64,000 nucleotides of DNA. It comes from Anaerococcus sp. Marseille-P3625. Its GTDB lineage: Bacteria > Bacillota > Clostridia > Tissierellales > Peptoniphilaceae. Shown here piece after piece: positions 23,095 through 45,429 of this stretch. The notes under the pieces were generated by a model, which searched no databases, was not told where the DNA came from, and saw only the letters and a program-made list of their open reading frames with translations. The stretch spans positions 645,262 to 709,261 of the forward strand of contig NZ_OCTP01000011.1 of assembly GCF_900232825.1 (NCBI RefSeq), in the 5' to 3' direction. The position numbers were made by a program, and so were the translations under genes. How positions within the stretch are numbered: position 1 is the stretch's first letter; each line of letters starts with the position of its first letter.

Positions 23095-24405
23095 CTAATT
23101 TTCAAAAACTGTTTGTTCTGAAATTTCAGTTTCCAAAGCTCTCAATGCTTTTTCAACTAAATGGTAACGTAAATCATATTCGTCCTGATCACTAAGTTCT
23201 GGGTTACCTAGTGGATAAGGAATTGCTACTGTAGGTACAATTCTGTTTGCTCCGATTGTTAATGAAATTGGAGTAATTGTACACATGTGAACTACAGGGA
23301 ATCCTGCAGCTTCTATAGCTTTAACCATTGTTGCACCGCAACGTGTACAGGTACCTCAGGTACTTGTAAGTATAACTGCATCAACTTTATCTTCTTTTAG
23401 ATATTCTGCTATTTCTTCACCAAATTTCTTAGCAGATGCTATAGCGGTACCATTACCTACTGTTGCATACCAATAATCATGAAGGGAACCAATTTTTCCT
23501 TCTTTTACCATGTTTTTAACAACATCTAGTGGAACAACTCTGTTTGGATTTGTATTTGCATAAGTTGGGTCATAACCACCGTGTGCTGTTTCTGCATTTT
23601 CACTTGTGAATTTATCAATACCTGAAAGATCATATCTTCCATATTTAGAAGCTGATGATGATTCAATGTGATCTGGGTTTCCTTTTGGTACAATACCACC
23701 ACTTGTTACAAGGGCAATTTTAATCTTGGAAACATCTTTTACAGCTGGTTGTGGATCTACTCTATCGAATGTAGGCATTGGATATTCTGTTTCAAATTCT
23801 TCGCCTGCGATCTTTTTAAGTAGCATTTTAACAGCTCTTTCAGATCCGTTTTCTTCTGCAAAATAATTCTTTCTTACACCTTGAGCCATGTATCCGTCAG
23901 CTTTTGGTGATACTTCTTCATTGTTTGCTAGTTTTTTAGCAAGGGAAGCTACTGATTTAATAGCACCTCTCATGCCTGCTGCACTATCTTTGGTTTCTAC
24001 AATATATACGTACTTTTTGTACATATCAGCACCTGGGTTTTCAACATACATAGCTGTGATAGCTGGTATATTTAATTCTTCTTTAACAGCTGTTGTGATA
24101 GAACCTGCTGCTACACCATAACGACCAGCGTTAAATGCAGGTCCTGCTATAAAGAAGTCAGGATTTTGTTCTTTGATAAAACCTAAGATTGTTTCTTTTG
24201 CACTAGCTTCGTTTTCATTGTAATATGAGTCACCACAAACAACTGCTGCTACAACTTCAAATTCGTCGCCTAGTTGTTTTTGTAGTTGAACACTAATTGG
24301 AGGAAGAGATTCTGCCAAAAATGGTGCTATGTCAGCTTTTTCTTCTCCACCAATACCAGCATAGAACTGGTTGATATAATGAACTAATCTAATAGCCATA
24401 TGCAC
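23095..24405 (-). CDS. grdB: Glycine reductase component B gamma subunit, selenoprotein (UGA = Sec350)
   Basis: Two open segments are joined by an in-frame TGA at 23358-23356, in the context TST-U-GTCTRCG that defines GrdB. With Sec at residue 350 the product is 436 residues, the family length. GrdB binds the substrate as a Schiff base together with the pyruvoyl GrdE fragments and hands the carbon unit to GrdA through its selenol. A small GTTGC/GCAAC hairpin lies about 15 bases after the UGA and may be the SECIS. selA, selB and tRNA-Sec are encoded next door. It follows grdA by 6 bp. Confidence 0.97.
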
Positions 24406-27955: not shown

Positions 27956-28080
27956 AACCTTCAGAATCTCATCAGCCATGGGTCCTTTTACCTGAGAAAT
28001 TCATAACTATGTGACTACAATAGTTACTTGTACCTTCGGTTTTTGACTTAACAAAATCTAACCATAACTTCATCTGATTA
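27956..28080 (-). promoter_or_regulatory. Glycine riboswitch, single aptamer
   Basis: The minus strand carries the two hallmark stretches of the glycine aptamer: ACCGAAGGTACAAG and TTTCTCAGGTAAAAGGACC, with a variable stem between them. ATCAG (28078-28074) can pair with CTGAT (27975-27971) to close the element. Only one full aptamer is seen; the bases after AAGGACC may form the so-called ghost aptamer of singlet glycine riboswitches. It controls the whole glycine reductase operon through the downstream terminator. Confidence 0.9.
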
Positions 28081-31400: not shown

Positions 31401-31495
31401 TGGCGAGAGCGTGTAGGAATCGAACCTACCTAAGAAGTACACTTCTCACGACGGTTTTGAAGACCGCAGAGCACACCAGAAACTCATCCGCTCCC
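31401..31495 (-). tRNA. selC: tRNA-Sec (anticodon TCA)
   Basis: This 95-nt gene has a GGGAGCGG acceptor strand pairing with CGCTCTC before an encoded CCA, an anticodon loop CTTCAAA with anticodon TCA, a long variable arm (about GTGAGAAGTGTACTTCTTA) and the T loop GGTTCGATTCC. The extended acceptor and large variable arm are the marks of tRNA-Sec. It is convergent with selB, with one base between them. Confidence 0.97.
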
Positions 31496-41756: not shown

Positions 41757-43055
41757 ATGAAAATTTATCTAAAAAGCCCAAATAAAAGAAAAATTGTATA
41801 TGATATCCTAAATATTTTTTACGAAAGCGACGAAATTTTATTTGCTGATTCAGGCGATTTATCTATATATGATAAAAAAATTTCATTTCTGGGAAAATCC
41901 TACGAATATGAAAATAATTACCAGCTAAAGGCAATTTTATACAAGATTTTAGCTAAGGAAAATTCCTATACTTCTCCTTGGGGAATGCTTACAGGATCCA
42001 AGCCCTCAAAGCTTTTGCAAAAATATAACACGGATGAAATTAAGGAAAAATATTTCCTTGCTGATGAAAAAATAAATTTGCTTGCTGAAATTAAAAACCA
42101 GCAAGAAAAATTATCCTTTAAGTCAAATGATTTTAATTTGTACATAAATATTCCTTTTTGTCCAAGTCGCTGCCAATATTGCGCTTACCCAACTCTTGTT
42201 GGCACAAATCATGACAAAAGCTCTTATGTTGATTTGCTTCTTAGAGAAATTAGAGAAATAAATTTGCCGGAAAATCTCGATGCAATCTATATTGGTGGAG
42301 GAACGCCTTCTTATTTGAAAATTTCCGATATCAAAAGGCTTTTAGAACTAATTAACGAAAAATTTACCTACCAGGAATTTACCTTTGAAGCAGGCAGAGA
42401 AGATACTCTTGATTTTGGAAAATTAAAGCTGTTAAAGGAAAATGGTGTCGGTAGAATCTCCCTAAATCCGCAGACTTTTAACGAAAATATTATAAAAGCA
42501 ACTGGCAGAGCCTATGACTTAGAGCATTTTCTAGAAATTTATAATTATGCTAAAAAACTCGGTTTTATTATTAATATGGATTTTATAGTAGGACTTGTGG
42601 GAGAAGATGCTAATTCTTTTAGGGAAAACTTTGAAATTTTAAAAAAATTATTGCCAGATAATATAACTTTTCACGCTCTTGCTAGAAAAGTTGGCAGCAA
42701 ATATAGGGAAAATAACAAGACAGGCTCCATCAAAGAAGCCCTAAAAATAAGCGATGATATAAGAAAATTTGTCAAAGAAAATTCCTATAAGCCTTATTAT
42801 TTGTATAGGCAAAAAAATATCATTTCAAATTTGGAAAATGTTGGCTATCAAAGAGAAAACACCGCTCAAAGATACAATATTATAATAAATGAGGAATTGG
42901 AAAATATTATAGGTCTTGGAATGAACTCCAACTCAAAGCTTATCAATAACGAAAAATACAGAAACGCCAGAAATATGAAAGATTATGAAGCTTTGCTGGA
43001 TGAAGAAATTTCTGACAAAAATAAAATGATAGAAAATTATAAAAAATGGATTTAG
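41757..43055 (+). CDS. hemZ: Coproporphyrinogen dehydrogenase-like radical SAM protein HemZ
   Basis: This 432-residue radical SAM enzyme has a 4Fe-4S motif CPSRCQYC (Cys135, Cys139, Cys142), the GGGTPSYL glycine motif and the HemN-like C-terminal region GMNSNSK. The N-terminal domain of about 120 residues before the radical SAM core is the mark of HemZ versus HemN/HemW. No other haem gene is in the window, so its actual role here is uncertain. It starts 11 bp after a LytTR repeat, so its leader would be very short. The stop codon lies in the terminator stem. Confidence 0.85.
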   Translation: MKIYLKSPNKRKIVYDILNIFYESDEILFADSGDLSIYDKKISFLGKSYEYENNYQLKAILYKILAKENSYTSPWGMLTGSKPSKLLQKYNTDEIKEKYFLADEKINLLAEIKNQQEKLSFKSNDFNLYINIPFCPSRCQYCAYPTLVGTNHDKSSYVDLLLREIREINLPENLDAIYIGGGTPSYLKISDIKRLLELINEKFTYQEFTFEAGREDTLDFGKLKLLKENGVGRISLNPQTFNENIIKATGRAYDLEHFLEIYNYAKKLGFIINMDFIVGLVGEDANSFRENFEILKKLLPDNITFHALARKVGSKYRENNKTGSIKEALKISDDIRKFVKENSYKPYYLYRQKNIISNLENVGYQRENTAQRYNIIINEELENIIGLGMNSNSKLINNEKYRNARNMKDYEALLDEEISDKNKMIENYKKWI

Positions 43056-43084: not shown

Positions 43085-44311
43085 TTAATCTATTGCTATA
43101 GGACTTTGAGAAGTTTTTTCCAAAGTCAATAATTTTTTGTAGGTCATATCCATTCCAATTGCACCAAGAGGAGCAGTTATCAAAATTGCAAGAACTGCAA
43201 CTGATAATACGATTTGCCCGCAAGCTAAGCCCATGGACAAAGGCACAGATCCTATGGCAGCTTGAACTGTTGCCTTTGGCAAATAAGCAATTACGCAAAA
43301 TAAACGTTCTTTAGCATTCAAATTCGTATTAACTAGGCAAAGCAAAACGCCGATTGACCTAAAGAAAAGTCCTATAAAAATCATGGCGATGGCAGCTATT
43401 CCTGCAGTCATGGTGTAGCGAATATCTACGGCAGCTCCAACCAAAACAAAAAGCAAAACCTCTGCTCCTATCCAAAGTTTGCCAAATTTTTCTGACAATC
43501 TTTTTGATACAAAACTTACACTTCTTATCTTCAAAACGCAAGCCATGCTCACAACTGCAAGTAAGCCTGATATAGGGAGGAAACCTTTTGCGTAAGTTTC
43601 TATAGCCATTAACAAAAATGATATCGCCAAAACTATTATAACTTTTCTGCTATTTCTTATATAAGCTCTCCTTCTGTAGGCTCCTTCAAAATATTCTGAT
43701 AAGACAAAACCTGTCAAAGCTCCAAGGCCTATGCCCAAAACGATTGAAAGTGGGATATTAACAAAATCCATAATTTTAATTTCTCCTCCTTGCGCCATGG
43801 AAAGGAAAGTTTGAAATAAAACTATTACAAAAATATCATCGCATGAAGCACCAGCAAGGATCATTTGAGGGATGCTTTTGTCTTTTCCGTAATTATTGTC
43901 GATAAGACTTACCATTCTTGGAACTACAACTGCTGGAGAAACTGCTCCTAAAACAGCTCCCATAACCAAGGCGTCAATTCTTGTAATATTTAAAAGCCTC
44001 GGAGCAAAAATTGCAAAGGCCAAAATCTCAAAACTTGCCGGCAAAAAAGACATCAAAATTGCAGGGCGACCTACTTTTTTTAAATCAGAAAGATCAAGAG
44101 AAAGACCAGCCTTGATAAGGATAATTATTAGGGCCATTTTTCGCAAATCTGAAGAAATGGAAAGAATCGATGGATCAAGCAAATCCAAAACAAAAGGTCC
44201 CAAAACAATTCCTGTAATGAGCATGCCGATAATTCCCGGCAATTTTAATTTTTGACAAATGCTAGCTGTAGCAAGGCCAACTAGAAAAATAAAAGCAAGT
44301 GATGTTAACAT
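43085..44311 (-). CDS. Cation/proton antiporter (CPA family), fluoride-riboswitch controlled
   Basis: This 408-residue membrane protein has about 12 helices of the Na+/H+ exchanger fold: KLPGIIGMLITGIVLGPFVLD, LIKAGLSLDLSDLKKVG, MGAVLGAVSPAVVVPRM and the ion-site-like ASCDDIFVIVLFQTF, where two adjacent Asp occur in helix 5. There is no C-terminal RCK domain. Antiporters of this family are among the gene classes found behind fluoride riboswitches, and the leader here carries that aptamer, so a role in fluoride tolerance (fluoride or compensating ion/proton exchange) is inferred. By sequence alone it is a generic CPA antiporter. Confidence 0.87.
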   Translation of the reverse strand: MLTSLAFIFLVGLATASICQKLKLPGIIGMLITGIVLGPFVLDLLDPSILSISSDLRKMALIIILIKAGLSLDLSDLKKVGRPAILMSFLPASFEILAFAIFAPRLLNITRIDALVMGAVLGAVSPAVVVPRMVSLIDNNYGKDKSIPQMILAGASCDDIFVIVLFQTFLSMAQGGEIKIMDFVNIPLSIVLGIGLGALTGFVLSEYFEGAYRRRAYIRNSRKVIIVLAISFLLMAIETYAKGFLPISGLLAVVSMACVLKIRSVSFVSKRLSEKFGKLWIGAEVLLFVLVGAAVDIRYTMTAGIAAIAMIFIGLFFRSIGVLLCLVNTNLNAKERLFCVIAYLPKATVQAAIGSVPLSMGLACGQIVLSVAVLAILITAPLGAIGMDMTYKKLLTLEKTSQSPIAID

Positions 44312-44344
44312 AAATCCTCCAAAATTTTAAAATATTTATCATAG

Positions 44345-44385
44345 AAAAAAGTCGACAATTTCCATCAAGCAGAAATTATCGACTT
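44345..44385 (-). terminator. Intrinsic terminator of the fluoride riboswitch
   Basis: On the minus strand AAGTCGATAATTTC pairs with GAAATTGTCGACTT (one mismatch), followed by TTTTTTC. It lies between the aptamer and the antiporter ribosome site (TTGGAGGATTT). Confidence 0.88.
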
Positions 44386-44404
44386 ATATATAAAACTCCT
44401 GCAG

Positions 44405-44470
44405 ATAAACAGAAGTCATCAGCTTTTTAAAGCGCTTTGGACAAAGTCGTGGGAGAACCTCATTCCCGAA
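44405..44470 (-). promoter_or_regulatory. Fluoride (crcB-type) riboswitch aptamer
   Basis: The minus strand reads GGGAATGAGGTTCTCCC, then ACGACTTTGTCC, AAAGCGCTTTAAAA and AGCTGATGACTTCTG. This fits the fluoride aptamer layout: a first stem enclosing ATGRGG, and the conserved 3' GCTGATGRCTYCT whose CTTC can form the pseudoknot with GAGG. A consensus promoter lies directly upstream and an intrinsic terminator downstream. Confidence 0.87.
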
Positions 44471-44485
44471 TATTTATACAAATTA

Positions 44486-44513
44486 TTTATACACTTAAAA
44501 AGATAAATGTCAA
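44486..44513 (-). promoter_or_regulatory. Sigma-A promoter of the fluoride riboswitch/antiporter transcript
   Basis: On the minus strand TTGACA (44513-44508), 16 bases, TATAAA (44491-44486). Transcription would start near 44479, about 10 bases before the aptamer. Confidence 0.83.
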
Positions 44514-44559: not shown

Positions 44560-45429
44560 CTAATTTATTAGCCAAACATGAGCTATCTGATCTCTAATTT
44601 CATCATAAGACCAAGCTTTTTCGCTTTTTTTAAGGCTGTTAGGATCGTTAACTATAAATTTGCCATCCTGGTAAGAATCTATGACTATAATATGGCCAAA
44701 AAGAGTAAATATTCCCCTGTTAACTGACACGAGCAAGGGTCCGGAATTTAGGGCGTTTATCATAGAATCTTTGTCAATTGAAATATCGCTTATGTGGTAA
44801 CCGTATTTGTTAGCTTCATCTTTGAAAAATTTCCATGAAATTCCATCATTTGTCATATAATTTCTAGCGTCATTTGAAATTTTTTCTGGATTAATTGTAA
44901 TATCATTATTTAATCTTGAAAGAATCATGGCCATAGAAGTTGGTCCACATCCTGCAAGGCCTATGACAGAATTTCCAAGAGCCTTGTAGGCCCATCTATT
45001 GTCCCATTGGAGAAAATAAGGAGTTTTTCTAGAAAAATCATGGGAGCTTCCATCAAAATAAGAAAAATCTGTAATGCCATTTTTGTAATTATAAACAAAT
45101 TCTATGGTATCGGAATCATTTCCAGCTAAATATAGCAAAGTATCGTTAAGCGATTCGGAATTTTCATAAAGCCATCTTGCCTTGTCATTGCCCTTATCGG
45201 CTTCACTTTTTATGTTTTTTAGCAAGATATTTTTATCGTCAGTCTTGTAATCTTTGTTGGCAAAATTAAAAGAAAACAATCTTTCAACTTTGTCAATAAA
45301 ATCTCCATCATAATAAGCCGTTTCATTGTATCTAGTTTTTAAAAAATTTACAATAACAAAAATAAAAAATAATCCTAGTAAAAATTTTAAAAATCTAAAT
45401 CTTTTTCTTCTTTTCCTCTTCCTTGTCAT
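44560..45429 (-). CDS. C39-like cysteine peptidase, membrane-anchored
   Basis: This 289-residue protein has a very basic N-terminus (TRKRKRRKRFRFLK) followed by a helix at about residues 14-30, then an outward-facing part. The papain-like Peptidase_C39_2 domain begins at TPYFLQWDNRWAYKALGNS, with the catalytic Cys161 in LAGCGPTSMAMIL, the His in LFGHIIVIDSY and the Asp/Asn in VNDPNS. Members are surface or secreted peptidases of unknown target. It is a single-gene unit divergent from a glycosyltransferase gene; the 178-bp gap shows no clear signal. Confidence 0.85.
   Translation of the reverse strand: MTRKRKRRKRFRFLKFLLGLFFIFVIVNFLKTRYNETAYYDGDFIDKVERLFSFNFANKDYKTDDKNILLKNIKSEADKGNDKARWLYENSESLNDTLLYLAGNDSDTIEFVYNYKNGITDFSYFDGSSHDFSRKTPYFLQWDNRWAYKALGNSVIGLAGCGPTSMAMILSRLNNDITINPEKISNDARNYMTNDGISWKFFKDEANKYGYHISDISIDKDSMINALNSGPLLVSVNRGIFTLFGHIIVIDSYQDGKFIVNDPNSLKKSEKAWSYDEIRDQIAHVWLIN

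Follow-up and report, generated by a model that had tools for sequence, protein, structure and literature searches.

A fluoride riboswitch followed by two hairpins precedes a predicted NHA-type antiporter in an Anaerococcus genome without detectable Fluc

Results

The stretch of DNA analyzed here, called the window throughout, covers 64,000 nucleotides of Anaerococcus sp. Marseille-P3625, and the unit of interest lies on its minus strand, as do all features given below unless stated otherwise. It consists of an antiporter gene (43085..44311, 408 aa), with an ATG start codon at 44311 and a GGAGG ribosome-binding site at 44316..44320, and of a leader holding a promoter, a fluoride riboswitch aptamer and two hairpins. 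The promoter (44486..44513) was read from the sequence as TTGACA (44513-44508) and TATAAA (44491-44486) around a 16-nt spacer, the hexamers being those named in the original prediction for this locus; our promoter scan omitted the pair because its rule demands T as the sixth base of the second hexamer. In several members of the genus TTGAC is, by eye, similarly placed 5' of the aptamer. The gene upstream (44560-45429, minus) encodes a protein with a C39-like peptidase domain, and a HemZ-type radical SAM gene (41757-43055, plus; TIGR03994 over its cut-off) converges on the antiporter gene; neither neighbor has an evident role in relation to fluoride.

A search of the whole window against 4227 Rfam families gave four matches, one of which is the fluoride riboswitch RF01734 at 44476-44403 (minus), scoring 43.1 bits where the gathering threshold is 34, with an E value of 1.2e-8. 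The original prediction had recognized a fluoride riboswitch pattern here and had proposed an Rfam search, with a missing match as the outcome that would speak against it; the match lies well above the cut-off. The observation is therefore confirmed, and its interpretation as a fluoride riboswitch on a CPA-family antiporter is supported at the level of sequence. It is the sole fluoride riboswitch match in the window and likewise in the 2.09 Mb genome. Since the riboswitch class is fluoride-sensing, fluoride is the predicted trigger of this switch.

The aptamer (44403..44476) contains P1 (44467-44464 with 44454-44451), the pseudoknot (44461-44457 with 44416-44412) and the inner stem (44433-44432 with 44423-44422). 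In an alignment of 40 aptamers the cells of P1 and of the inner stem were paired in 100% and those of the pseudoknot in 96%, and these pairs, being mostly invariant, give no covariation support on their own. A control structure slid by +3 gave a covariation score of 0.093 versus 0.089 for the aptamer structure, with 42% versus 91.5% of cells paired. Inside the aptamer there is also a small extra hairpin (44439..44449; 44449-44446 with 44442-44439), an insert in the Rfam alignment, in which all four pairs show changes on both sides among the 40 aptamers; in the window its outermost pair is C with C. This insert could form six pairs (CGACTT/AAGTCG) as an antiterminator against the second hairpin, a candidate that we rejected, as the relatives fold it into a small hairpin of its own. 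The other Rfam matches in the window, all on the minus strand, are SECIS_4 (23318-23355), a glycine riboswitch (27970-28073) and a selenocysteine tRNA (31405-31495), a set which suggests that there are selenoprotein genes nearby.

Downstream of the aptamer the original prediction had placed an intrinsic terminator 5' of the ribosome site, which agrees with a terminator-like hairpin and T run found here; beyond that prediction, the leader holds two hairpins 3' of the aptamer as well as the small one within it. In the first, T1 (44394..44417), the strand GACTTCTGT (S1), which holds the pseudoknot strand, pairs with GCAGGAGTT (X, 44402-44394), and in the window the T run 3' of this hairpin is poor and broken. 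The second, T2 (44345..44385), has a 16-pair stem (44385-44349) followed by TTTT. A part of its 5' arm, AATTTCTGC (S2, 44369..44377), is complementary to X, so that X:S2 is a possible antiterminator. The leader as a whole (44480-44340) folds better than shuffled sequences (z -3.67; 1 of 200 as good).

Judged by the best-scoring hairpin, 107 of 120 leaders and all 17 further ones (124/137) begin the 5' arm of their terminator within the 3' part of the aptamer, a count made with a crude scorer that includes several weak stems (G064 scores -1). This is the layout of the published ON-switch, in which, as outlined in PMC11077080, the pseudoknot strand doubles as the terminator's base and is kept from switching partners once fluoride is bound. 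The 13 leaders missed by the scorer comprise four with two hairpins (the window's, G000, and L042, L043 and L044) and nine others (L050, L083, L086, G012, G016, G019, G043, G065 and G115), and L055, the remaining two-hairpin leader, was scored as an overlap by way of its T1. In the window leader, too, aptamer and terminator platform compete, T1 using the pseudoknot strand. It shares P1, pseudoknot, inner stem, an intrinsic terminator platform and a presumed fluoride-defense gene downstream with the B. cereus crcB switch (RF01734). The window and its four relatives differ from the common layout of such switches in having two hairpins in place of a single terminator, the second of which would be blocked by X:S2. 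Our searches of an open-licence library turned up no two-terminator fluoride riboswitch. The two-hairpin leader is thereby a naturally occurring variation on a switch that has been studied in depth.

In each of the five leaders with two hairpins X, the 3' arm of T1, can pair with S2 (-10.7 to -15.8 kcal/mol). The match of X in the next 75 nt was equalled by 2, 37, 13, 0 and 1 of 1000 shuffles in G000, L042, L043, L044 and L055, respectively, where the shuffles preserve base composition only and the best downstream match of X is not always exactly S2. We propose that without fluoride the 3' strand of the aptamer would be taken into T1, T2 would form and transcription would stop. With fluoride, the bound aptamer would retain the S1 strand and free X to pair with S2, and this pairing would block T2 and allow the antiporter to be made. 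In the window T2 (-17.4 kcal/mol) outweighs the X:S2 hairpin alone (-7.2 kcal/mol), and minimum-energy folding retains T2 even with the aptamer fixed, therefore such a switch would have to be kinetic. The same persistence of T2, together with the T run of T1 being broken in the window and present in L042, L043, L044 and L055, could also mean that the window's switch has partly decayed, that T2 terminates regardless of fluoride and that there is little expression from the promoter. We regard this as very improbable, as the aptamer scores above the Rfam cut-off, X:S2 pairing is possible in each of the five leaders, and promoter, ribosome site and reading frame are intact. S2 resembles the aptamer strand with which it competes; T2 may therefore have arisen by copying of an older terminator, and the complementarity of X and S2 may partly be a by-product. 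Other leaders vary in other ways: in L042 (3270-4000; L180 is the same place) riboswitch and antiporter are about 730 nt apart, with no long ORF on the gene strand in the spacer, and in L081 (3895-3983) and L082 (3904-3988) the stretch from the fluoride riboswitch to the start of the antiporter contains a GA-cis RNA, which makes two RNA elements in one leader.

The encoded protein has the PF00999 transmembrane domain (135.4 bits, cut-off 26.2), in agreement with the assignment to the CPA family made originally, and no other PF00999 protein was found in the window genome, which also has three matches to PF03553 (NhaC-type), one of which lies in a reading frame interrupted by two stops. It falls short of the cut-offs for PRK05326 (K+/H+ antiporter; 62.2 against 355 bits) and TIGR00932 (CPA2 subfamily; 47.5 against 238.3 bits). 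The closest solved relative by sequence is human NHA2/SLC9B2 (E 2.5e-42), from the NHA group of CPA2, and the closest fold is again NHA2 (TM 0.84, E 1.8e-16, 31-32% identity in the structural alignment), as judged from an AlphaFold2 model with a mean pLDDT of 77.4. R57, E95, D158, D159, R318 and K346 were found in all 160 orthologues and E335 in 159 of them, and in the alignment each of these seven charged residues, the paired aspartates D158 and D159 included, is the same residue in human NHA2. On these comparisons the antiporter is predicted to be of NHA type; it is like NHA2 in fold and conserved charged residues but is bacterial and under a fluoride riboswitch. Conservation of the NHA2 charged residues favors cation/proton exchange, so the protein would take Na+, or else Li+ or K+, in exchange for H+. 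The conserved residues of the 160 orthologues gave no sign of an anion site.

In a tree of 177 proteins the 160 orthologues stand apart from 17 other CPA proteins (99% SH-aLRT), in what is a quick tree with 57 of its 174 inner branches open. The 23 other rows from the window's genus form two groups (11 and 12) and the window copy belongs to neither; it lies within a set of 51 rows from other genomes (96%), nearest to L043, L045 and L042. The other four two-hairpin copies (L042, L043, L044 and L055) make up one clade (96%), with the window copy near but outside it. The grouping of the window copy outside its own genus points to a probable transfer of the riboswitch-antiporter cassette.

Discussion

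The combination of a fluoride riboswitch and an antiporter is widespread in the relatives of the window genome. Among 121 of these genomes (the window genome included), 73 hold an orthologue, defined by 42% identity or more (in three genomes the pieces are shorter than 1 kb), and in 62 of the 73 RF01734 was found on the gene's strand no more than 400 nt upstream, in many-genome searches whose stricter filters lose weak matches. At named loci, the best 80 of 144 by protein similarity, a match lies upstream in 75, and none was found at L069, L076, L078, L098 and L109; this set and the genome sets may overlap. A chance match of RF01734 in the window was rejected on the basis of its E value and of the same gene following in these 75 of 80 loci. 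In a sample of 236 genomes from the class, where antiporters were accepted up to E 1e-30, the antiporter was present in 35, a fluoride riboswitch match in 50 (42 over the cut-off) and both in 29. The 62 riboswitch sites of this sample precede the antiporter in 30 cases and CrcB, within 600 nt, in 7, and the remaining 25 sites, 10 of which are below the gathering score, precede neither. It is known that Na+/H+ antiporters are, after exporters, the genes most commonly found with fluoride riboswitches and that they contribute to pH homeostasis, as summarized in a 2024 review that cites Baker et al. 2012 (PMC11139923). In C. difficile a fluoride riboswitch precedes a CLC and an NhaP-type antiporter, according to the operon described in PMC11477304. 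The window pairing, with a gene of Na+/H+ type behind the switch, is thus one more case of an already known class. It differs from the C. difficile operon of PMC11477304 in that the antiporter is the sole gene behind the switch and is NHA2-like, and in that neither CLC-F nor Fluc was detected in the window genome. Our searches of an open-licence library found no functional study of fluoride-switched antiporters. The link is nevertheless less new than the original prediction suggested, as the class itself already appears in the two papers just cited.

The main question posed by this locus is whether, and how, a Na+/H+ exchanger can be a cell's chief fluoride defense. Fluc/CrcB and CLC-F exporters resemble the antiporter in their control by fluoride riboswitches and in a presumed role in fluoride resistance, but they belong to other protein families, and in both of our samples fluoride-switched antiporters occur only where Fluc is absent. 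The window genome, 99.89% complete, holds no candidate for PF02537 (Fluc/CrcB) and lacks any known exporter. CrcB was found in 14 of the 121 relatives and in 44 of the 236 class genomes (one only below the curated cut-off). By plain Fisher tests that ignore kinship, its distribution is 0/73 with the antiporter against 14/48 without (p 6e-7) in relatives, 0/35 against 44/201 (p 6e-4) in the class sample, 47 antiporter and 7 CrcB genomes with none holding both (p 4e-4) among the 73 of the window's family, and 26 and 7 with none holding both (p 2e-3) among the 48 of the order-only set. Among the 31 genomes of the own genus a single one has CrcB, and it has no antiporter, too few cases for power (p 0.19). 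Our searches of an open-licence library found no earlier report of this mutual absence.

This pattern could be attributed to descent, the antiporter then being a mere accessory to general fluoride stress and the real defense lying with another, unrecognized protein or with none. Such an explanation would fit with plain Fisher tests over related genomes, with the powerless own-genus test, and with Fluc being commonly absent, as 157 of the 236 class genomes have neither gene (35 have the antiporter, 44 CrcB and none both). On the other hand, the overlap is zero also when the family and the order-only set are each taken by themselves, and 7 of the 18 antiporter-bearing families of the class sample hold CrcB in other genomes, so we consider descent an unlikely account.

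The picture is different for CLC proteins, present in 65 of the 121 relatives. In the own genus each of the 29 CLC genes, the window genome's included, carries the chloride motif GSGIP, and the only CLC of the window genome has GSGIP and GREGP. It does not match the CLC-F motif set of GNNLI/GMGLI, GREGT/V and GEVTP, which is taken from the motif description in PMC11139923, and a CLC-F query gave no match in this genome at E 1e-30; the possibility that this CLC is a fluoride exporter was rejected on its chloride motifs. Judged from sequence, the antiporter is the only recognizable fluoride-defense transporter of the window genome. Among the 65 CLC-bearing relatives (motif rows from 61), the published CLC-F motifs occur only in G112, where the gene follows a riboswitch. 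The CLC-F query matched in 3 of the 121 relatives and in 53 of the 236 class genomes, and 28 motif rows from 30 class CLC loci gave 4 with GNNLI/GREGT/GEVTP and 24 with GREGA. At the class sites G186, G260 and G282 the riboswitch is directly followed by a CLC gene that carries all of the CLC-F motifs. A CLC-F-like protein is present in 8 of the 35 antiporter genomes of the class sample versus 7.9 expected, so that exclusion of the antiporter by CLC-F-like proteins was rejected; with overlap at chance level, the exclusion holds for Fluc and not for the broader CLC group. The four class genomes with full CLC-F motifs lack the antiporter (0.6 expected), too few to test. GREGA-type CLC loci L253, L254, L256, L264, L267 and L268 contain in addition a distant CPA antiporter that shares 21-23% identity with that of the window, an arrangement that recalls the C. 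difficile operon of CLC and antiporter.

One way to read these data is that the antiporter itself expels fluoride, for example F- together with a cation or against H+, and would join Fluc and CLC-F as a third family of exporters. The complete lack of overlap with Fluc in both samples is in accordance with this, as are the 27 of 35 class antiporter genomes that have neither CrcB nor a CLC-F-like protein, and a window genome that lacks Fluc and recognizable CLC-F yet keeps a fluoride riboswitch on its antiporter. But the charged residues conserved here are shared with NHA2, a cation/proton exchanger, no anion site is evident in the orthologues, and CLC-F-like proteins overlap with the antiporter as by chance; fluoride export by the protein is therefore doubtful. 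It is just as doubtful that the fluoride-switched NHA-type antiporters form a third dedicated fluoride-resistance family that exports fluoride and replaces Fluc across Clostridia, with a function beyond pH homeostasis alone.

We therefore favor as probable that the locus is a unit in which fluoride induces a cation/proton antiporter, whose activity would maintain pH and ion balance and serve as the fluoride defense where Fluc is absent. The predicted cation/proton exchange would correct the pH and ion disturbance that follows the entry of HF, or would lower the pH gradient which traps fluoride inside the cell, and in Fluc-less genomes the antiporter would in this way stand in for Fluc. The homeostasis part is supported by the connection of fluoride-riboswitch antiporters with pH homeostasis made in PMC11139923. 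Pure pH homeostasis does not easily account for the constant absence of Fluc beside the antiporter.
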